DNA from: a virus
Direction: 5' to 3' (one strand)
IMG/VR virus record: IMGVR_UViG_3300042455_001086
Location: 1 to 64,000 of that record
Length of the DNA stretch: 64,000 bases
The position numbers and the translations under genes were made by a program. Shown here piece by piece: positions 14,400 to 58,220 of this stretch. The notes beneath the pieces were generated by a model. It saw only the letters and a list, made by a program, of their open reading frames with translations. It was not told the DNA's origin and did not search any database. Each line of letters begins with the position of its first letter. The stretch's first letter is position 1.

Positions 14400-17300
14400 T
14401 TACCCATTTAGTAATTTGTCCAATTCTTTTTCAATATCACCCAATGAATTACGACCTTTTGATAGATCAATATATTCATCTTCGACCAAATCATTACTCT
14501 CAAGTAAGATGTTAAAGTTTCTTTTTTCTACACTATCCATCATTGGTTCTCCTCCTCCTGGTGGTGGGGGTGGTGCTCCTTCTCCTCCTGGTGGTGGGGG
14601 TGGTGCTCCTCCTGCTGTTACAGTTTCACCCGATACTGTTTTATATAATTTATCAATATTATCAAACATACCAGTTTTAGTAATTACGGTTGCGGTATTT
14701 GCTAGCTCAGCGGCAACAGCTCTTTCTAATCTTATTTGTTGTATTTCAAGTTTAATTTCTTCGTCGGAGAACCCAAATATGTGTTTTTTAGCCCAAGTTG
14801 CAGAAGTTGGTTGTAATGTGTTTGCAATTTCTGTAACCATATCTTTATACAATAAAACTTTTTCTTTCCAAACTGAAACCATAAGTAAATCAGCTTGTTT
14901 TGAGGGATTAGTAAGTCCTAGAGTAAAGTTGTGTAGTTCGTCTTCAAAACCTAATAAAAATAAATGAATGATTGCAATTTTATTCAGTTCGGCAATCATA
15001 CTTTTTTGTATTTTATTTATGGTTCTAGCAAAACGAATATCAAGTAATGATAGATTATCACCATTTCCAACCGGTTCTTCAAAACCTAAAAATGCTTTTG
15101 GTATTCTTAACGCTGTTACAAGTTTCTTTTGGATATATTCAATATCGGCAATCTCCGATAAGTTTTGAGCACCAGGTAATGTTTCAATTGGCATAGTTGC
15201 CGCTGGATCTCTAACAGGAATAAAATAATCTTGATCTACGGCCATTTGATTAAATCTTAAATCAACATTACCAGTTTTAGAATCAACAACCTGATCCCTT
15301 TTAAATTTGTTTGCAACTCTTTGTACATAAGCCTCAACATCCTTATCATCCATATTTCCAACAAACACTTTAAACACCCTTCTTTCTGGTGCTCTTGATG
15401 TTCTATATATTAACATCGCATCTTCAGCCAAAACAAGTTGTTTCCAAATTCTACGAGCTTTTTCAAGCATTGATGTTCCGTATGGAAGTTTTCTATCATC
15501 ACCTAATAATCTGAAATGAGCCATTTCCCAAGTGTTAAACTCCATGTCTTTGTTTTTCCAAACAAACTTTAAATTTTTATTTTTGAATTGAACTTCAGGA
15601 CCCAAAACCGAATTCATAGTTCTGGCTTCCATTCCTCTTTCTAGTCTTTCAATTTCTATGTTTGGTAGTTGAAGACAGCCGACAACACCTTTTTCTGGGT
15701 CTAATTTTAAATAAACGAAATTATCGCCATATTTACAGTTGGACAAAAACACACCGGTTTCTCTTGAATGATTACCATTTACATCAAAACCACAGACTGG
15801 GAAATTATGTCTATCATGTTCTCCGTTCGGACCAACAGCTTCTAAACAATAAACATCAGATGTTTCATCTAACTTAATTACTGAAACAACTTTATGGTTA
15901 ATAACTTTTACTTTAGTTTTTCCTTCAAAAATTGACTTAGCTTTAATATATTTTTCATCTAAAATAATTTCTGGTTTAATATCAGATATAAAATCAAAAT
16001 AATTTTTATTTGTTTTTCTTAAAATAACTTTTTTTAATGTTGTTGGATTAATTGATTTTGTGATATTTTTATTTAATTTATAATTTTCTTTGAATAGTTT
16101 GATAAACTCATTATCTGATTTGAGAATTTTTGACAACTCATTTACTCCCACATATGTCTCACAATTTTTAATTAAATTAGAAATATACGATAAACAAGTA
16201 TCATTAATTTCAATTGTCATCCCCTTTTTTGTTTTTTCTATAAAATTATTATCTCTCCAATGATTTAACATTTTATTTGAACGAATTATATTGTGTTTGA
16301 CATGTAATTCACTATTATTATAATTTTCAAAATATCTATTATAGACACCAGTCATTTCTTTGGATAGTCTTTGTCTTCGTTTTTCTGAACGCAAATACCT
16401 ATCAATTCCATCCATTCTTTTTTTAACAACTTCTGGCGAACCTAATATTTTATTAAAATGTTCCACATGTAATTTAAAATGATCCGAATGTCTCATTCTA
16501 CTCAAATTTTTTGGGTGATTATTTAGTTTGTTAAAATCAATGTGATGTGTGTCAAATTGCTCACCAATTATTTTTTCATTTTCCAAATCTCTAACACATT
16601 CATGTGAAACCATTGTGTGGGTAAATTTATATTTTCCTGTACTTGGGTTAAATACCTTTTCATAACCGACAATTCGGTCTTTTTTCTTTTCACTTTTTTT
16701 AGTGTAAAACGGCATTAATGATTCACCTTTAGTTAATTTATCAGCTCGTTTAAATGACCCATCCCTAAGCATATATTCGTGATCTGGTGTCGTGTCAATA
16801 TATGTACCATCATCTAGTGTGACCCTATACAACTCACTATTTTTTCTAGTTAGGTCACACCATATAATTTTACTAGGAACAATTGCTTTAGTTCCATCTT
16901 GTATTGAGTAAGACCAAATCTCCTCACCATTCTTAATCCTATCACTCAATTCTTTTATTGATACTTCTGTACCATCTAATAATGGTATCATAGTATTCTC
17001 TCTAATTGGAGTGTTTCTTACCCACATTGGTAAATTGATTGATATGTCCAAAACATTATTAAACAAATCAGTTAAAATTGATTTGATTCTCTTTGATTCT
17101 GAATATATCTGTAGAACATAACCATCTTGATTTGGTGTTGTAGATTCCTCAGAATAAATGTCTAAAGCCGTTGATATTTCAGGAGTATTATGTGAAAATA
17201 TAGTATCAGTTGCAAAGTTTTTATATCCTGGAACTGTTAAATCATAAACAGGTATGACACCATTTTCTTCTATTGATACTATTTTATGATTAAATACTAA

Positions 17301-18422
17301 TGTGTTTCCCTTACTTTTTACTGTTGCGTATATTGATTTTTTAATCCCGTATGCTTCTAAAAATGTGGACCAATCTTTATACCCACTATTTACGATTTCT
17401 CTTTGTATTTTTCTATATGATACATTTAATTTTTTTGCAGTACCCTTTAATGTTTTTATTTCTCTGGCGGTTTCTATGATACTATCAAAAGGTATTTTAA
17501 AGTAAGCTGGGTTATTAATACCACTTCTCTTACCATCCCAACTATGTTCACCTGTTCTTTTTGCAACTTCAGACATTTTTTGTCTATACTCTGGGTTTGT
17601 CCACAATTTTTCGTTGTTTAATCTTGCGTGATAAGCTCTATGTTCGGAAATATTCATTATTTGTAAATTTTCCGGTTTGTTATTTTTACCGTTAAAATCT
17701 ATATGATGAACTTCTTCATCTTTGTTAATTTTTTTACCATAAAACCATTCTGCAATTAAATTATGTTCCGAAACCCATCCATTATGACCTTCTTCTGAAT
17801 TACAAGTATATACCCAATTATATTTTTCATTATTGTAAAATGATTTTCTATAAAAAGGCATCATTGAGTCCCCTTCTTTTAAGTTCATTACACGTTCAAA
17901 TGAACCATCTCTTTTCATTAGTTGATGTTCCCATGTTGTTACAATATATGAACCGTCGTCAAATGTAATTTTATATGTCATTTCATCTCTCGTATAATGA
18001 GCATTTCTAGCTAAAGCCGGAACAACTTTTTTTAAATTGTGGTCATATGCGTACGTAATAAATTCATAATCTCTACCTTTTTCGGCTAATTCTTTAATTG
18101 TTATAAAACCATCTGTGGTTGCGATTTTAGTATCTCCCGCAATACAATATTCCATTGATTCATAATCATAAAAAGCCGCAATTCTATTAGGTTCATAATA
18201 CACCGCTTGAGCATATAAATTATTCTCAATTTTTTGCCATTGATTACTTAAAAATAAACTTTGTTGGTATTCTAATTTTTCTTTTTCGTATTCTTGTTTA
18301 TCTGTTGTTTTTAATAAAACCGTTTTATCCAATTTAACTGTTGGTTGGTCTAGATTCAAAAGTGAGTTGGGGCCAAATGTTTTGGATAATTTCTGCCATA
18401 TTGTCAAGTTATTTTTTTCCAT
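14400..18422 (-). CDS. Portal protein (gp20-like) containing two inteins
   Basis: 1340 residues as encoded and about 596 after removal of two inteins (residues 93-412 and 472-895), close to T4 gp20 size. Extein signatures: NRIAAFYDYESMEY | TPEISTALDIYSEES, LPMWVRNT | CKYGDNFVYLKLDP, then ARRIWKQLVLAEDAMLIYR and APERRVFKVFVGNM, all typical of T4-like portals. The C-terminus has two Gly/Pro-rich repeats from a 30-bp duplication. The portal forms the dodecameric DNA channel at the head vertex. It follows the terminase and the 316-residue gene. Confidence 0.92.
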   Translation of the reverse strand: MEKNNLTIWQKLSKTFGPNSLLNLDQPTVKLDKTVLLKTTDKQEYEKEKLEYQQSLFLSNQWQKIENNLYAQAVYYEPNRIAAFYDYESMEYCIAGDTKIATTDGFITIKELAEKGRDYEFITYAYDHNLKKVVPALARNAHYTRDEMTYKITFDDGSYIVTTWEHQLMKRDGSFERVMNLKEGDSMMPFYRKSFYNNEKYNWVYTCNSEEGHNGWVSEHNLIAEWFYGKKINKDEEVHHIDFNGKNNKPENLQIMNISEHRAYHARLNNEKLWTNPEYRQKMSEVAKRTGEHSWDGKRSGINNPAYFKIPFDSIIETAREIKTLKGTAKKLNVSYRKIQREIVNSGYKDWSTFLEAYGIKKSIYATVKSKGNTLVFNHKIVSIEENGVIPVYDLTVPGYKNFATDTIFSHNTPEISTALDIYSEESTTPNQDGYVLQIYSESKRIKSILTDLFNNVLDISINLPMWVRNTPIRENTMIPLLDGTEVSIKELSDRIKNGEEIWSYSIQDGTKAIVPSKIIWCDLTRKNSELYRVTLDDGTYIDTTPDHEYMLRDGSFKRADKLTKGESLMPFYTKKSEKKKDRIVGYEKVFNPSTGKYKFTHTMVSHECVRDLENEKIIGEQFDTHHIDFNKLNNHPKNLSRMRHSDHFKLHVEHFNKILGSPEVVKKRMDGIDRYLRSEKRRQRLSKEMTGVYNRYFENYNNSELHVKHNIIRSNKMLNHWRDNNFIEKTKKGMTIEINDTCLSYISNLIKNCETYVGVNELSKILKSDNEFIKLFKENYKLNKNITKSINPTTLKKVILRKTNKNYFDFISDIKPEIILDEKYIKAKSIFEGKTKVKVINHKVVSVIKLDETSDVYCLEAVGPNGEHDRHNFPVCGFDVNGNHSRETGVFLSNCKYGDNFVYLKLDPEKGVVGCLQLPNIEIERLERGMEARTMNSVLGPEVQFKNKNLKFVWKNKDMEFNTWEMAHFRLLGDDRKLPYGTSMLEKARRIWKQLVLAEDAMLIYRTSRAPERRVFKVFVGNMDDKDVEAYVQRVANKFKRDQVVDSKTGNVDLRFNQMAVDQDYFIPVRDPAATMPIETLPGAQNLSEIADIEYIQKKLVTALRIPKAFLGFEEPVGNGDNLSLLDIRFARTINKIQKSMIAELNKIAIIHLFLLGFEDELHNFTLGLTNPSKQADLLMVSVWKEKVLLYKDMVTEIANTLQPTSATWAKKHIFGFSDEEIKLEIQQIRLERAVAAELANTATVITKTGMFDNIDKLYKTVSGETVTAGGAPPPPPGGEGAPPPPPGGGEPMMDSVEKRNFNILLESNDLVEDEYIDLSKGRNSLGDIEKELDKLLNG
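14551..14610 (-). repeat. 30-bp tandem duplication (Gly/Pro repeat) in portal C-terminus
   Basis: Two adjacent 30-bp copies (14551-14580 and 14581-14610) that differ at one base encode an Ala-Pro5-Gly2-type repeat. Confidence 0.85.
15738..17009 (-). other. Intein 2 in portal, HNH type, apparently starting with Pro
   Basis: Residues 472-895. The block A spacing (P-I-R-E-N-T-M-I) places Pro at position 1 where Cys or Ser is normal. Block B is TTPDHEYML and the HNH motif is HHIDFNKLNNHPKNL. The C-terminus is FLSN with +1 Cys, so the penultimate residue is Ser, not His. Splicing gives RNT|CKYGDNF, a natural portal sequence, which supports the junction assignment. Confidence 0.8.
17187..18146 (-). 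other. Intein 1 in portal, with HNH endonuclease
   Basis: Residues 93-412. Block A: C-I-A-G-D-T-K-I. Block B: VTTWEHQL. The endonuclease motif HHIDFNGKNNKPENLQIM is HNH type. Blocks F/G: VYDLTVPGYKNF...FSHN, then +1 Thr. Class 1 layout with Cys1 and terminal His-Asn. The extein junction EY|TPEIS restores a normal portal sequence. Confidence 0.9.
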
Positions 18423-19486: not shown

Positions 19487-22400
19487 CTATCTTTTACCAA
19501 ATAACCAACCATATTCCATATAATCTCTTCTTGACGGTCCGGAATTATTTCTATTAAATCTATCGTTATTAACTCCCATATTTGGTATTACAGGATCAAA
19601 ATGAATTTGTTTTCCAATATTATCATTATTTGCAACAGTCCAAGATTCAATCATTATTTTTGTTTTTTCTGTAACTTTTTCAAGTTTTGAGAATGATGAC
19701 TCACCAACATATATTGCCATTGATATACCCATTATAAGATCATCGTGTTGTCCTTTTTGGTGATCTGGCCTTCCGTTTATATAGACAAACGTATTCATCT
19801 CATTATACAAACGAACACTTCTGATTTTAAATTTATGTCTTACATATTCCTCAAATGCCGCAATAATTTGAACTCTTTTGTTATTAAAATTTATTCCTGG
19901 TATTTTATCTGCCGATGTTTTATTAACAGCCCAAATATTCATAGAATCAACACCATCAATATAAAGGTTTTTATATCCAAGTTCTTGCATTTTTCTTACA
20001 GTTGTGATTCCCATACCACCGGTGATATCCACAACACAAAATGCGTTATACATTATCCCCCATTTATACGCAATTTCAGCTAAAGCATCAGGAGGGATCT
20101 TTCCAACATATTCTAATACTTGTTCTCTTTCATCAAAATCAATAATCTGGAGTGAGGAAAAGTCCTCACTATCACCACGAGAAACATCACAGTTGTGTGT
20201 GGTAATGTGGTGACACATAAAAGTATGTGTTTCACACTCAAAGTTATACACATTTCCAGTAAATTGATTCTTATCAATATCTTTAATCCTAAAGTAAATA
20301 TATTTATTATCCTTACTAAAATGACACCCACTTATAATCCTTTTATTATTAATACTAAAATCACTTAACTCAAATCTATTTAATTTGGGGTCAAGTTTAT
20401 CATTATTCAAAATTTTAATTAAATCCAAACTATCTTGATTTGATAATGATAAACTGTATGTTTCTTTATGTTTTATAGTTTTACCCTTTATTTGTGATTG
20501 TTTTTCATTTCGTAACTTACTTAACGATGAAACAACACCAAATGAAAACAATATGTCTTGGATTGACTCCAATAGTTCCAAATTTATACTAACAAATGTT
20601 ATTTTAGAATTTACTTTACCTTTTTTTTTGGTTTTCAACCAACAACCGTCACTAGCTAAATAACCTTTTATCAATTCAATTTTATATTCTTTAGGTATAA
20701 ATTTAACCCATTCTGATATTTTTTTACCATATGAATATTTACCAAAATTTTCTAATATAAAATGATATAGAAATTTTGAATTAAACACTAATTCATAACT
20801 ATTCTGATCTTTATCAAAAAATGACGGACTTCTGTCAAATAATCTTTTTATTATATTTTTTGTTTTATCCAAATAATACAAATCTTTAGAATCAAAACAG
20901 ATATTTATTGTAAAACTATGACCAACATCATACATACAACCATCACCTAACCACATACCTATAAACCACCAAAAATCTTTATCCTTTAATGGTGATTTAA
21001 TATTAAAATCGGTTCTAATATTTTCAGAAATAACCCATTTATCCTCTAATATATTTTCAATTTCTTTATTATAAATATTCGGAGTTTTAACCCAATCACC
21101 AACCTCAACTTCCTCAACCCTTGTGTATTTAAAATTAAAATCCCAATATCTTTCATTAAAATCTAATGAATTATGTTTTTTACTATAATTACGTTTTAAA
21201 ACTGGATTACTTATTAACAACGGATGTTCTTTTGTGAATGTCGTTTTTCTAAAAGTGTTGTCGACCTTAATTGTAAAAATATCCTCATCAACGACTGGGT
21301 ATATTTGTTTATTATAAATCTTAACATATTCACCATTTTCACTAACTAACTTATCATCTAATGTAACATCTTCAATATTTTTTAACCCACAATCAGTTAA
21401 TACTTTTTCACTAGGTGGCAAACAACCTAAAATGTATTTATGTCCCGGTACTGGTTCTTTCCAAATCCAAAGAGCATTACCCATCATTTTTGTTGGAGCT
21501 TCTTGTATTGTGTTTTGTTTTATGTAATCAAGTTGTTTTCCGTCAAATACATTATCTCCAGACCCTAAAAATTCACAATTTAACTCTTGGTTAATTTTTC
21601 TTTTATCGTATTTTAATTTTTTAACCATCTTCTCATACCAAGTAGAACATGGTTTATATCCTTGTGAAAAATATTCTCTTATTTTCTCATAATCCCTATT
21701 ATATGGATCCGAGTCCTCAAATGATATATTCCCAGAATGATCTCTTTCATCTTTATTAAGTAGATAATCAACCATATCATCAGTTGGAACTAAATATAAA
21801 TCTTTTGAATATCTTGGGTCTTTCCACCAAAACATTTCAGAAATTTTAAAATTGTTAATTCCTTTATTTGCCTGATTATATATTTCATAATAAATTGGAT
21901 CATAACCGTTTGGTGTTGAAACAACAATAACTTTACCACCGGTAGATAGGGACGCCATACAAGCTGCCCAGAAATCACCATCAGCTTCGATAAACGCCGC
22001 CTCATCAAATACAAGTATTGTTGGTGTATAACCCCTCAACGCATCTCGTGATGTTGCAACAGCTTTAACTTCACAACCATTTGTTAGTTTATAGTGTCTT
22101 TGTGAGTTTTTATCAGCTGAAAATCCGGTTCCAACCCAAGAAGGCCATTGTTCTACAAAGGCTCTAATTTTATTTGCCATCTCCATTGATGTATCAAGTT
22201 TGTTGGCAATAATCAATATTTTTTCTGGTCGTTCTTTTTTTGCAAAAACCAGTCTTTTTGATATCCAAGCAGCGGTTACTGTTGATACACCAGCCTGACG
22301 ATATTTTAAAGCTATATTTTCTTCAAAATCTTCATAATCTTTAAGTAGTGATATTTGATCTGGAAATAACTCTAATGGTACATATTTGGAAACGGTATTA

Positions 22401-22492
22401 TCATATGTTTGTAAATATGTTCTTAAAGCATATGGAGTGTCTTTCATACATCTCACATACTCCAACATCACCTGTTCTTTTGTTAAACCCAT
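19487..22492 (-). CDS. Large terminase subunit (gp17-like) with one intein
   Basis: 1001 residues, about 590 after splicing. ATPase domain: a deviant Walker A ALKYRQAGVSTVTAAW (Lys placed before RQ, as in some terminases), Walker B ILVFDEAAF, and motif III VVSTPNG. The nuclease domain begins HKYILG | CDVSRGDSEDFS, with the first catalytic Asp right after the intein, and continues VVDITGGMG and DHQKGQHDDLIMGISMA. It packages DNA through the portal. It lies upstream of the portal with one gene between. Confidence 0.92.
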   Translation of the reverse strand: MGLTKEQVMLEYVRCMKDTPYALRTYLQTYDNTVSKYVPLELFPDQISLLKDYEDFEENIALKYRQAGVSTVTAAWISKRLVFAKKERPEKILIIANKLDTSMEMANKIRAFVEQWPSWVGTGFSADKNSQRHYKLTNGCEVKAVATSRDALRGYTPTILVFDEAAFIEADGDFWAACMASLSTGGKVIVVSTPNGYDPIYYEIYNQANKGINNFKISEMFWWKDPRYSKDLYLVPTDDMVDYLLNKDERDHSGNISFEDSDPYNRDYEKIREYFSQGYKPCSTWYEKMVKKLKYDKRKINQELNCEFLGSGDNVFDGKQLDYIKQNTIQEAPTKMMGNALWIWKEPVPGHKYILGCLPPSEKVLTDCGLKNIEDVTLDDKLVSENGEYVKIYNKQIYPVVDEDIFTIKVDNTFRKTTFTKEHPLLISNPVLKRNYSKKHNSLDFNERYWDFNFKYTRVEEVEVGDWVKTPNIYNKEIENILEDKWVISENIRTDFNIKSPLKDKDFWWFIGMWLGDGCMYDVGHSFTINICFDSKDLYYLDKTKNIIKRLFDRSPSFFDKDQNSYELVFNSKFLYHFILENFGKYSYGKKISEWVKFIPKEYKIELIKGYLASDGCWLKTKKKGKVNSKITFVSINLELLESIQDILFSFGVVSSLSKLRNEKQSQIKGKTIKHKETYSLSLSNQDSLDLIKILNNDKLDPKLNRFELSDFSINNKRIISGCHFSKDNKYIYFRIKDIDKNQFTGNVYNFECETHTFMCHHITTHNCDVSRGDSEDFSSLQIIDFDEREQVLEYVGKIPPDALAEIAYKWGIMYNAFCVVDITGGMGITTVRKMQELGYKNLYIDGVDSMNIWAVNKTSADKIPGINFNNKRVQIIAAFEEYVRHKFKIRSVRLYNEMNTFVYINGRPDHQKGQHDDLIMGISMAIYVGESSFSKLEKVTEKTKIMIESWTVANNDNIGKQIHFDPVIPNMGVNNDRFNRNNSGPSRRDYMEYGWLFGKR
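20192..21424 (-). other. LAGLIDADG intein in terminase nuclease domain
   Basis: Residues 357-767 (411 aa), Cys1. Block B: TFTKEHPLL. Two dodecapeptides: FIGMWLGDGC and LIKGYLASDGC. C-terminal block: VYNFECETHTFMCHHITTHN, with +1 Cys. It is inserted one residue before the catalytic Asp of the DVSRGD motif, so unspliced protein cannot be an active packaging nuclease. Confidence 0.9.
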
Positions 22493-38488: not shown

Positions 38489-38517
38489 TATATTTGTATT
38501 TATATATAGTTCTTTGA
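38489..38517 (+). promoter_or_regulatory. tmRNA promoter (TATATTTG) and boxA-like leader
   Basis: TATATTTG at 38489-38496, then AGTTCTTTGA at 38508-38517, 6 bp before the tmRNA 5' end. The second element resembles the rRNA antitermination boxA and recurs at other RNA genes here. Confidence 0.6.
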
Positions 38518-38523
38518 AAATAT

Positions 38524-38914
38524 GGGGGTGTTTTTGGATTTGACAGGTATTGGCTGAGGAATAAGGGCATGTAGGGACTAAGTTAATCTCTTTAAAAACT
38601 GACTTGGAAAACAACTGGCAATGTGCTAAACAAAATGGAAACTCTTGGATTAGTAAGAGGTTCTGAAGTTACTGTAGCTTAAGATAAGTTCGGAAACGGG
38701 GGGTCGGCAGACATATAACCTAGCAACAGAAGTCGTAGTTTGATAGAGCACACCGGATGGCTCTCTAAATCCGATTCGGGACCATTGGTTGTTGATTTAC
38801 GATGGTGAAGAACAAATCAACTATTTTGGGATATTAGAAAATATCAACCTAAACATGTAGTCCTTATCTGACAGGATATTATGGACCGGAGTTCGACTCT
38901 CCGCACCTCCACCA
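38524..38914 (+). ncRNA. ssrA: tmRNA (transfer-messenger RNA)
   Basis: 391 nt. The 5' GGGGGTG and 3' CACCTCC form a 7-bp acceptor stem with a G3.U70 pair (alanine identity), and CCA is encoded. The signature GGATTTGACAGG follows the 5' end. T-arm: CGGAG-TTCGACT-CTCCG. A frame ending ...GSEVTVA-stop (TAA at 38680-38682) is the most likely tag end; the usual LAA end is not seen, so the tag assignment is uncertain. It rescues stalled ribosomes and tags peptides for proteases such as ClpXP or ClpAP. The phage also encodes its own Clp ATPase. Confidence 0.92.
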
Positions 38915-41812: not shown

Positions 41813-41850
41813 ATATTATAATATATAAACTATAAATATATGATATATAT

Positions 41851-41876
41851 AAAAAAAGGATAACCAACCGTTATCC
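41851..41876 (-). terminator. Terminator of the large noncoding RNA
   Basis: Stem GGATAAC/GTTATCC, loop GGTTG, followed by T7 on the minus strand. Confidence 0.8.
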
Positions 41877-42765
41877 CCAATTTTTTTTTAATAAGATCTT
41901 ATATTTTTAAAAAAAGCCTGAGATTACAGCTTGGTTTGAGAACCTTTTGAAGGATTATTTTTTCCCTTCGTATCCACCATCTTTTGAATGGTATTTCTCA
42001 GTGACGGTTTTTTAGGTATACCACTCCTTTAGGTTTGAATTACTCTCATCTTACTTGACTCTTTCCGAGGATGCCTCCCCAGTTCGTCCTTGCGGGATTA
42101 AAGGTTTTTCGGATAATTACACATCGACTTGGGATCTTTGTGTGCAATGAACGGCTCATTACTATGTAGTCACCTTTCATCCAAACCTGACGGACACTTT
42201 TCCTTTCTGTAGTTAATAATAGAATCATTACTTTCCATAAAGTATTTGTGTTGTGGATTGTGAAAGTAGTGGTCCGTCAACCAAGCCAACCCATCTTTTG
42301 AACGGATCGATACTTAACTACTCTCTGAAATGTCCCCATTTCCATATTTTTAGACTACTTCAAAACAATTCCCTTGGTAAGGAATAATTAGGGTTGGTAA
42401 CAGCACCATCTGTACACGAACATACCTTTCGGTTTTAAGTATCCTATTATATTGGAACACGCAATAATAAAATTGGATAATTCTATTTTTTGCAATATTC
42501 CTACGAGTTATTCCTATTGGTGTTCCCACCTCAAACTGACAACCCACATTGCCAGTTCATCTAACCACTTTCCCTACAGCGTTGCCCTCGGTACTAAAGG
42601 TTAAACGGTATCCCGCTTGTGTACTCAAGTTCAGTTACCCAAACCGCAAACCATTTACACGAATGATTCACTTTATCCCACTTTCGTGGTTTATTTTATG
42701 GACTATACACGGCCCAATATCTTTATCAGTTTCATTTCTTACTCCTGAAAGGATAATCTAATTTT

Positions 42766-42775
42766 TCAAAGAACT
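42766..42775 (-). promoter_or_regulatory. boxA-like element of the large RNA
   Basis: AGTTCTTTGA on the minus strand, in the leader, same as at the tmRNA. Confidence 0.55.
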
Positions 42776-42802
42776 TTTTCGGACTTTTCCGAATTTGTTT
42801 TA

Positions 42803-42833
42803 CAAAGTTACGACATTTATTCTAATTTGTCAA
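42803..42833 (-). promoter_or_regulatory. Promoter of the large noncoding RNA
   Basis: TTGACA, 17-bp spacer, TAACTTTG on the minus strand; the best-conserved promoter of the TAnnTTTG type in the window. Confidence 0.75.
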
Positions 42834-43797: not shown

Positions 43798-44268
43798 TTA
43801 TATAAATATGAACCAATCTGGAATTTGTCTATTTTTCCATCTTGCAAAATCTTTTTTTGCTCTCATATAATAATTTCTATAAGATTTAATAACATCATTA
43901 CCAATTTTAAATTCATCACCCATTGCTAGTGGTGGTGTTGTAAAATTAATATCGTTAATATTTGGTTTATTGGTTAAACACCATTCAATTACATCCTGTG
44001 ATTTATGTCTTTTACCATATCGGTAGGTATATTCTTTACAGAGTTCCAAACCTAAATCACACAAATAAAGATAATTTGATAATGATTCTCTAACCCAAAT
44101 AGAACAAGGGTGATTTTTGTGGGATAATTTATATGGGGCTTCAGAACCTAAAACCCAATGAGAACCACATAATAATTGTGCTGATTCAACTATTAGCTTA
44201 CAAACATGCTTATCACAATGGTATTGAGCACATTTTTTTGTGTCAAAATCAAGGAAAAATATATTCAT
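43798..44268 (-). CDS. Conserved phage protein of unknown function (CAQYHCDKH motif)
   Basis: 156 residues. MNIFFLDFDTKKCAQYHCDK, then LLCGSHWVLG, NHPCSIWVRES and RYGKRHKS match a conserved phage/bacterial family I know only as hypothetical. Cys/His positions suggest metal binding. A TATCTTTG box ends 4 bp before the ATG. Confidence 0.7.
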   Translation of the reverse strand: MNIFFLDFDTKKCAQYHCDKHVCKLIVESAQLLCGSHWVLGSEAPYKLSHKNHPCSIWVRESLSNYLYLCDLGLELCKEYTYRYGKRHKSQDVIEWCLTNKPNINDINFTTPPLAMGDEFKIGNDVIKSYRNYYMRAKKDFARWKNRQIPDWFIFI

Positions 44269-45453: not shown

Positions 45454-45570
45454 GATGCCAGGGTGGGATTCGAACCCACATTTAGCAACCTTATAACTTC
45501 TCGCGTCCAAATTGCTCTTGGACCATGGTGTCTTTAGGACTTGGCACCGTGCCGCATTACGCTCCTGACA
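45454..45570 (-). tRNA. tRNA-like gene, isotype unclear
   Basis: A 7-bp acceptor (TGTCAGG/CCTGGCA) and a perfect T-arm GTGGG-TTCGAAT-CCCAC are clear. The unit is ~115 nt, and I cannot place a D-arm or an anticodon loop with U33. Confidence 0.4.
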
Positions 45571-47664: not shown

Positions 47665-47680
47665 AATTTTAATTTTTTCG

Positions 47681-47799
47681 TAGTCAGTCAAGGAATCGAA
47701 CCTGTATTCAACCCAATCTCGATGTTGGCATTGTTATTCCCAGCGTCTACCAATCACAGTCAATCCAATTGACATATATGGCTATTCCGCCACCTGACT
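47681..47799 (-). tRNA. tRNA-Leu-like gene with D-loop insertion
   Basis: The Leu-type D-arm halves GGCGGAATAG and GGTAGACGC are separated by ~30 extra nt. Acceptor AGTCAG/CTGACT. The T-loop TTCGATT has only a 3-bp stem. 119 nt in total. Confidence 0.4.
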
Positions 47800-47809
47800 A
47801 AAAATAAGA

Positions 47810-48137
47810 TTGATTTAGTGGACATATATAATCCCGCCTTGAGCAATTCGTTTCCACTAAGCTTTGACTTTACGGGCTTAGCTTTAAATCAATCTATACG
47901 AGGTTGAGGTCCTCTATGTTGTAAGTTGCCTACCATAAATGGTATCCTTTATCGTCTACTCAAGCAATTCCTTTCTCAAGGGAACAACACAATAATGTTG
48001 ATAGTGTTGGTGTACCCGCCTATTTCCAATCTTAACTGCCTTTTTAAGTTTTATGGTGCACCGGCAGTGGGCCATATCTATCCTTAACCTACGTAGTTTG
48101 TCGACAACTTCCGTAGAGGCGATCACTATCAATTTTT
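47810..48137 (-). ncRNA. Structured RNA with boxA-like leader and 24-nt shared motif
   Basis: Begins after AGTTCTTTGA (48138-48147, minus). Contains GTGTTGT...ACAACAT enclosing the GAGA-tetraloop hairpin and a TACCAT/ATGGTA hairpin (47916-47990), matching the element at 45.6 kb with compensatory changes. The only frame here, on the minus strand, looks like RNA translation. Confidence 0.55.
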
Positions 48138-48156
48138 TCAAAGAACTTTCTTTTGG

Positions 48157-48646: not shown

Positions 48647-48727
48647 GAACTACCCATAGGACTCGAACCTACAACCTTCGGGCCGAAGTAGACCCGTGTG
48701 CAAACCAAATTTACACCATAAGTAGTT
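48647..48727 (-). tRNA. tRNA-like gene, isotype unclear
   Basis: Acceptor AACTACT/GGTAGTT, T-arm GTAGG-TTCGAGT-CCTAT, D-stem GTGT/GCAC with GG in its loop. The anticodon arm closes as CGGG/CCCG with a non-standard loop. Confidence 0.5.
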
Positions 48728-52525: not shown

Positions 52526-52817
52526 TACTTGGAGCGGGAATCGAACCCGCACGGGCAAATGCCCACAGGATTTTCTTACCACTATAGTTTTCACTACCAA
52601 CCAAATTGTTGTTTGTGGTCTGGACTATACCTTAACCTTATCTTTTTAGACTTAGGTTCTCCGTGTCTAGTCTCTACACCTTACTCATTTCTGAGTCTTG
52701 GCTCGGTATTCCCATTTTAAAAGGTTCACCGAATTTACGGAGTTCTACTCAGAGGGTTTCCACTCTGGCACTCAAATTATATAAGTCCGGCGTGTCTACC
52801 TATTCCACCACCCAAGC
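52526..52817 (-). tRNA. tRNA-Leu(TAA) interrupted by a group I intron
   Basis: Exons 52783-52817 and 52526-52574. The spliced anticodon loop CTTAAAA (TAA) is on GGA/TCC. Acceptor GCTTGGG/TCCAAGT, T-arm GCGGG-TTCGATT-CCCGC. The intron follows U34, the same site as in cyanobacterial tRNA-Leu(UAA). Confidence 0.85.
52575..52782 (-). other. Group I intron (208 nt) in tRNA-Leu(TAA)
   Basis: Conserved core elements are visible on the minus strand: AGAGACTAGACACGG (R) and AAGGTATAGTCC (S). The terminal G is at 52575. No ORF inside. Confidence 0.85.
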
Positions 52818-52832
52818 ATTTTACCAATATGT

Positions 52833-52842
52833 CAAAGAACCT
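52833..52842 (-). promoter_or_regulatory. boxA-like leader of tRNA-Leu
   Basis: GGTTCTTTGACATATTGG on the minus strand just before the tRNA-Leu 5' end; nearly identical before tRNA-Gln at 58.1 kb. Confidence 0.5.
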
Positions 52843-58029: not shown

Positions 58030-58039
58030 AATTTATTGT

Positions 58040-58108
58040 TGTTCCCCAAGGACTCGAACCTCGATTCCACGGACCAAAACCGCGTGTCCTGCCATTAGAC
58101 GAGGGAAC
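58040..58108 (-). tRNA. tRNA-Gln(TTG)
   Basis: Anticodon arm CGCGG-TTTTGGT-CCGTG, acceptor GTTCCCT/GGGGAAC, T-loop TTCGAGT. Confidence 0.85.
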
Positions 58109-58125
58109 ATTATGAAGCCAATATG

Positions 58126-58137
58126 TCAAAGAACTTT
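58126..58137 (-). promoter_or_regulatory. boxA-like leader of tRNA-Gln
   Basis: AGTTCTTTGACATATTGG on the minus strand between tRNA-Thr and tRNA-Gln. Confidence 0.5.
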
Positions 58138-58147
58138 TTCTTTTTTG

Positions 58148-58220
58148 AGGTTTCTATCGGGTTCGAACCGATGACTCCGGGTTACAAAGCCGGGATATTA
58201 CCAAACTATACTAAGAAACC
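58148..58220 (-). tRNA. tRNA-Thr(TGT)
   Basis: Loop TTTGTAA on CCGG/CCGG, acceptor GGTTTCT/AGAAACC, T-arm ATCGG-TTCGAAC-CCGAT. Confidence 0.83.

Follow-up and report, generated by a model that had tools for sequence, protein, structure and literature searches.

Which RNA is encoded by a 0.95-kb interval without a good reading frame in a large phage genome, and how would a phage produce an untranslated transcript of this size? The interval, 41850-42833, lies in the first 64 kb (hereafter the window) of the 257,166-bp IMG/VR virus record IMGVR_UViG_3300042455_001086. An initial annotation, made from the letters without naming a strand, had described it as a noncoding gene with a promoter, a leader hairpin, a boxA-like element, long-range helices and an intrinsic terminator, and had raised GOLLD, ROOL and a new large-RNA class as possible identities. 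The comparisons reported here identify the gene by its sequence as a stand-alone phage GOLLD RNA on the minus strand, because the Rfam model of this family was matched over its full length and covariation was detected in both domains. The boxA-like element in its leader turned out to be the most informative feature; it is identical to the boxA of the ribosomal RNA (rRNA) operons (rrn) of Bacteroidota.

The whole GOLLD model (RF02032, positions 1-416) matched 41915-42325 on the minus strand with 321.6 bits (gathering score 150, E = 2.6e-91), and no ROOL match was obtained in the whole-window scan or in permissive scans of the region. The record contains a single GOLLD copy. None of 20 dinucleotide shuffles folded as well as the RNA strand of the region (z = -3.56), and four terminator-like sites were found against 0.5 expected. 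The promoter, leader hairpin, boxA and terminator were all recovered as annotated, every one on the minus strand (Table 1); plus-strand promoters from a scan of the region were discarded, as neither the RNA nor its relatives support them. The longest sense open reading frames (ORFs) reach only 60-65 codons and no frame is protein-like, in line with the annotated lack of a good frame. The median longest sense ORF over 80 GOLLD relatives was 59.5 codons versus 51 in shuffled sequences, and a protein-coding reading was rejected. Rfam matches to BTncRNA_FopS, SNORA27 and snR68 were also rejected, being far under their own cut-offs; that to BTncRNA_FopS was limited to the GOLLD 3′ tail including the terminator.

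To gather relatives, viral contigs were scanned with words conserved in the 5′ domain or the 3′ domain, which returned at least 118 stretches per pattern. A four-sequence profile then gave 235 matches, 170 of them full length and 80 non-redundant. Measured from the first helix to the end, the full-length relatives are 785-919 nt long, and the mean pairwise identity among the 80 sequences is 0.71. A similarity search gave full-length but unannotated relatives in the genomes of two huge phages, LR745206 (635 kb, L011) and LR756502 (642 kb, L012), and a 3′-domain match in Acinetobacter phage Herod (L013). In a set holding one genome for each bacterial or archaeal species, the 5′-domain word returned a single match, in Gramella jeungdoensis (L364), and it was rejected as a chance match since nhmmer showed no similarity. 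At least 118 viral stretches against this one chance bacterial match for the same pattern suggest that this GOLLD type is distributed mostly in virulent phages, not prophages. A host among the Bacteroidota is suggested by the promoter, by boxA and by a terminase with distant kin (27% identity) in Flavobacterium phages.

Covariation was evaluated in the 80 sequences by a G-test with average product correction against 20 nulls replaying column changes on the tree, a home-made variant of the R-scape idea rather than R-scape itself. Of the 57 pairs that covaried at E <= 0.05, 48 belonged to the RNAalifold consensus, and 55 were canonical in 80% or more of the sequences. The long-range helices, and with them the covariation without which the initial annotation would have been given up, were thus found, and they span both domains. 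Supported helices run from 42710-42705:42624-42619 to 42342-42337:42332-42327 in the 5′ domain and from 42325-42317:42270-42262 to 41930-41928:41918-41916 in the 3′ domain. Significant pairs beyond the nested structure include those of the helix closing a variable linker in the 3′ domain, and 42202:42132, which joins the linker flank to a hairpin loop. The linker is 67-91 nt long in all 80 relatives and no tRNA (transfer RNA) was called in it here; GOLLDs of another type carry a tRNA inside this linker (L003:8241-8309, L010:322-390).

The architecture agrees with GOLLD as described by Kretsch et al. 2025 (PMC12286853) in the whole 3′-domain model, the separate 5′ domain, the length above 800 nt, the tRNA-bearing phage and the variable linker. 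It further shares a kissing-loop contact and a loop that switches palindromically between GC and CG, both compatible with published inter-subunit bridges. In that study, the GOLLD of a marine relative (env-38) assembles as a hollow 14-mer RNA cage with the linker inside, the L20-J13/15 kissing contact is inter-subunit in cryo-electron microscopy (cryo-EM), and a GC/CG switch in L21a supports another inter-subunit contact. Matched by position and behaviour to the elements of that paper, 42202:42132 is probably the L20-J13/15 contact (bridge B7), and the hairpin at 42098-42086 is probably the symmetric kissing loop L21a (bridge B8). Covariation here is consistent with two inter-subunit contacts published for the 14-mer nanocage. 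The present RNA differs from the published one in its 67-91-nt linker without a tRNA, its rrn-type boxA leader and Bacteroidota promoter, and its occurrence in large Bacteroidota-type phages.

The -7 element of the predicted promoter agrees with the Bacteroidota consensus TAnnTTTG; of 74 relatives, 66 have this consensus in the 100 nt ahead of boxA (4.6 in shuffles). Under a strict test, a hairpin with 6 bp or more in the 40 nt before boxA was present in 24 of 74 (1.4 in shuffles), with a stem whose sequence differs among relatives. Of 189 relatives, 178 have GTTCTTTRA in the 170 nt leading up to the 5′ domain; after redundancy removal the count is 76 of 85, against 0.2 in shuffles. Since the relatives had been gathered by patterns within the RNA body, boxA was not selected for in this sample. 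The figure of 76 is a lower bound, as at least two of the nine negatives (L201 and L329) do carry boxA and were missed because of a misplaced anchor. The 9-mer is nearly invariant and its flanking letters vary; its distance to the 5′ domain ranges from 27 to 141 nt. In L011 and L084 an upstream tRNA takes the place of the promoter, yet a hairpin and boxA are still present. As the Herod GOLLD and the L003, L008 and L009 types lack boxA, the element was rejected as a general GOLLD feature, and GOLLD in itself does not include the boxA leader.

The core 9-mer, GTTCTTTGA, is letter-identical to the Bacteroidota rrn boxA in 12 16S leaders and in 14 of the 15 16S-23S spacers listed; 16S leaders of Flavobacteriaceae have GTTCATTRA at the same place. 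A search of the Gramella assembly found no 16S, so that other genomes of Flavobacteriaceae and Bacteroidota supplied the rrn leaders. The rrn boxA sits about 80-180 nt before mature 16S, and some GOLLD leaders resemble the rrn leader even past boxA (L011, GTTCTTTGAAATATTGAAATTACAG; rrn, GTTCATTGAGATATTGAAATTGACAG). Like rrn boxB-boxA-boxC leaders, the phage leader places boxA just past the promoter and ahead of a large structured untranslated RNA; a small hairpin, a possible boxB counterpart, often precedes it. Unlike them, the phage boxA leads GOLLD, tRNA and tmRNA (transfer-messenger RNA), and no boxC was identified. boxA recruits NusB-S10, giving a Rho-resistant polymerase. In Escherichia coli, boxA, which is flanked by boxB and boxC, is necessary and sufficient for the rrn antitermination complex, and this complex has been proposed as a chaperone of RNA folding (PMC10250234).

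The same 9-mer also precedes other stable RNAs of these phages. Among 120 non-redundant GOLLD-bearing loci, GTTCTTTRA occurred in 95 GOLLD leaders, and 33 copies were followed within 120 nt by a tRNA or tmRNA. For the fixed 9-mer GTTCTTTGA the counts were 87 and 22, against means of 0 and 0.05 for permuted 9-mers, and further boxA copies of the form GTTCTTTAAMATATGGGGGT stand in relatives ahead of tmRNAs that ARAGORN overlooked. In the 257-kb genome GTTCTTTGA occurs seven times: five copies lie in stable-RNA transcripts and two opposite coding frames (59660+, 152579+). The tRNA vicinity noted in the initial annotation holds in that the window has 24 tRNA calls; the GOLLD gene itself is outside the tRNA array, with the closest calls (45454-45546 and 47004) 2.6-4.2 kb off and the tmRNA about 3 kb away on the other side. 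The 93-nt call at 45454-45546 was made by ARAGORN only and is absent among the Rfam tRNA matches.

Table 1. Features of the GOLLD gene and of other boxA-led units in the window
Feature	Coordinates	Strand	Remarks
Promoter: TTGACA (42833-42828), 17-nt spacer, TAACTTTG (42810-42803)	42803-42833	-	predicted from sequence
Leader hairpin TTCGGA-AAAG-TCCGAA, TTCGGAAAAGTCCGAA	42778-42793	-	position of rrn boxB
boxA GTTCTTTGAAA, core 9-mer 42774-42766	42764-42774	-	identical to Bacteroidota rRNA-operon boxA
GOLLD 5′ domain	42327-42715	-	alignable in 80 relatives; 21 of 57 covarying pairs
GOLLD 3′ domain	41915-42325	-	whole RF02032 model, 321.6 bits
Variable linker in 3′ domain	42192-42275	-	closed by covarying helix 42276:42191, 42275:42192
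Covarying pair 42202:42132, linker flank to hairpin loop	42132-42202	-	GC 45, CG 29, AT 5
Hairpin with loop CGCAA or TCGAA across relatives	42086-42098	-	palindromic GC to CG
Intrinsic terminator GGGGATAACGGTTGGTTATCCTTTTTTT	41851-41878	-	hairpin 41878-41856 plus T-run
tmRNA unit: promoter TATATTTG just upstream, boxA GTTCTTTGA (38509-38517), tmRNA (38524-38914)	38509-38914	+	
boxA (48146-48138) directly past tRNA-Asp, then conserved noncoding RNA of about 135 nt	47996-48146	-	
boxA (52840-52832), then tRNA-Leu-like 5′ half split by group I intron	52600-52840	-	
tRNA-Thr, boxA GTTCTTTGACATATTGG (core 58134-58126), tRNA-Gln	58038-58220	-	

Since the same phages place boxA before many tRNAs and the tmRNA, GOLLD falls in a set of stable RNAs that would be expressed in the manner of rRNA. 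We propose that these phages borrow the host rRNA antitermination machinery for making their stable RNAs, GOLLD included. Host RNA polymerase would initiate at the Bacteroidota-type promoter, and the nascent boxA would at once bind host NusB-S10 (NusE) and other Nus factors, which would switch the polymerase to the rRNA-type antitermination form. This form would shield the untranslated 0.9-kb transcript from Rho, so that a very large RNA could be made fast, abundantly and with aid in folding. The RNA would then fold as 5′ and 3′ domains around a short floppy linker and assemble into the GOLLD cage, and transcription would stop at the hairpin-T terminator. We infer Nus recruitment in a Bacteroidota host by analogy with rrn, and cage formation from the cryo-EM of a relative. 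We estimate the probability of this explanation at about 80%. A regulon in large Bacteroidota phages, in which GOLLD, tmRNA, tRNAs and further small noncoding RNAs would each be boxA-led and made by the rRNA antitermination and folding machinery, also appears probable.

As for the role of the RNA, accumulation during lysis would be expected of a GOLLD, and ribosomes were reported to bind GOLLD in pull-downs (PMC12286853). We tentatively put forward, as a possibility on the doubtful side, that it forms an RNA compartment late in infection, linked to translation, in which tRNAs or cargo related to ribosomes would be held or protected.

Several observations weigh against the proposal of borrowed rRNA antitermination. 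Some relatives (such as L012, L107, L198 and L220) have no boxA in the leader searched, as is the case for the other GOLLD types named above. The promoter is a predicted one, and the cage and role are carried over from a distant relative. The GOLLD of a Lactobacillus brevis prophage is, as cited in PMC7567579, dispensable for phage production, so that, on this one prophage, the benefit of GOLLD may be conditional.

The data could also be read as an ordinary GOLLD gene whose boxA plays no part in antitermination and is either a leftover or a fixed piece of a Bacteroidota promoter cassette. Joint inheritance of promoter and boxA is possible, given their near-fixed spacing of 26-28 nt in most relatives, but in other relatives the spacing is 16-88 nt, boxA is kept in L011 and L084 with a tRNA in the promoter's place, and it also stands between tRNAs (58134) and beside the tmRNA. 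The 9-mer is, moreover, almost invariant amid variable neighbours, and we regard the cassette as unlikely. A decoy, in which an abundant boxA RNA titrates host NusB-S10 off the rRNA operons and shuts down host ribosome synthesis, would account for the exact match to the rrn boxA of the host group and for the several copies per phage; in phage ICP1, moreover, the most abundant transcript is noncoding and about 800 nt long (PMC7567579). Such a decoy has no need to stand 5′ of each structured RNA, and we hold it to be quite improbable as the explanation of these leaders. The present evidence does not tell a decoy and an antiterminator apart, and both could hold.

It is very improbable that GTTCTTTGA instead base-pairs with the body of GOLLD within the RNA fold. 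Its invariance in most relatives would suit such a constraint, but the RNA body holds fewer boxA complements than shuffled sequences do, on which ground this pairing was rejected; the distance between boxA and body also varies by more than 100 nt, and boxA occurs before tRNAs and tmRNA as well. Size and phage context had made ROOL or a categorically new large RNA worth considering in the initial annotation. GOLLD alone was upheld: the whole-model match far above cut-off, with no match to ROOL, which is likewise a large phage RNA forming a cage but a different family, leaves those two assignments with hardly any credence.

Several other RNA elements were observed in the window and in related loci. 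The tmRNA (38524-38914, plus strand), missed by ARAGORN, is one-piece, with its CCA encoded in the gene and a terminator of its own (RF00023, 110 bits). The RNA of about 135 nt at 47996-48131 (minus) is closed by TTGATAGTG/CACTATCAA and has relatives in L139, L347, L345, L356 and L179; it had no Rfam match and is possibly a new small phage RNA. A separate unit of about 150 nt with its own promoter and boxA lies a few hundred nt upstream of GOLLD in L051 (3235-3430) and also in L360, L169, L066, L128 and L096. Its core is CAGTCTAGGTCCGTAGGGCTACTGTTG...GTGAGGAAAGTGACTACGGG, it gave no Rfam match above threshold, and it possibly represents a new RNA class. The tRNA-Leu-like 5′ half with its group I intron (52600-52808, minus; RF00028, 53.7 bits) was reported neither by ARAGORN nor by the whole-window scan. 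A further tRNA-Leu-like sequence with a D-loop insertion (GGCGGAAT / AGCCATATATGTCAATTGGATTGACTGTGATT / GGTAGACGC; 47680-47795, minus) had no tRNA call. A call with a four-base anticodon (actt; 48647-48726, minus) is a possible frameshift-suppressor tRNA or degenerate gene, and the promoter TTTGGTAGATTGAAATAAAATACATATCTTTG is repeated ahead of three tRNA units (around 48990, 48495 and 47122, minus).

Among the protein genes, a pyrimidine-dimer DNA glycosylase (Pfam Pyr_excise) is encoded near GOLLD (43798-44268, minus). The portal protein (1340 aa; 14400-18422, minus) has an HNH-endonuclease segment, and terminases of crAss-like phages give a separate alignment to residues 340-800 of the terminase large subunit (1001 aa; 19487-22492, minus); both proteins probably hold inteins or similar insertions.

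The RNA itself thus belongs to a known family, and what appears to be new is the boxA leader of this clade, together with that of the tRNAs and tmRNA of the same phages; our literature search, which covered few subscription papers, found no account of a GOLLD RNA with boxA. Outside rRNA, boxA has been described at suhB and other genes by Baniulyte et al. 2017 (PMC5725501), whose survey was restricted to protein genes and left noncoding RNAs aside. Those cases, likewise boxA outside rRNA, are 5′ untranslated regions of mRNAs, unlike the phage noncoding RNAs, to which class the present observations would extend boxA-dependent control. A conserved rRNA-type boxA before GOLLD would offer a concrete answer to how phages mass-produce a giant untranslated RNA. 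By tying GOLLD to the expression route of tRNAs, tmRNA and rRNA, it may also narrow the question of what GOLLD is for. If the proposal is true, the GOLLD cage RNA is made like ribosomal RNA, and the boxA tag would provide a handle on its function.
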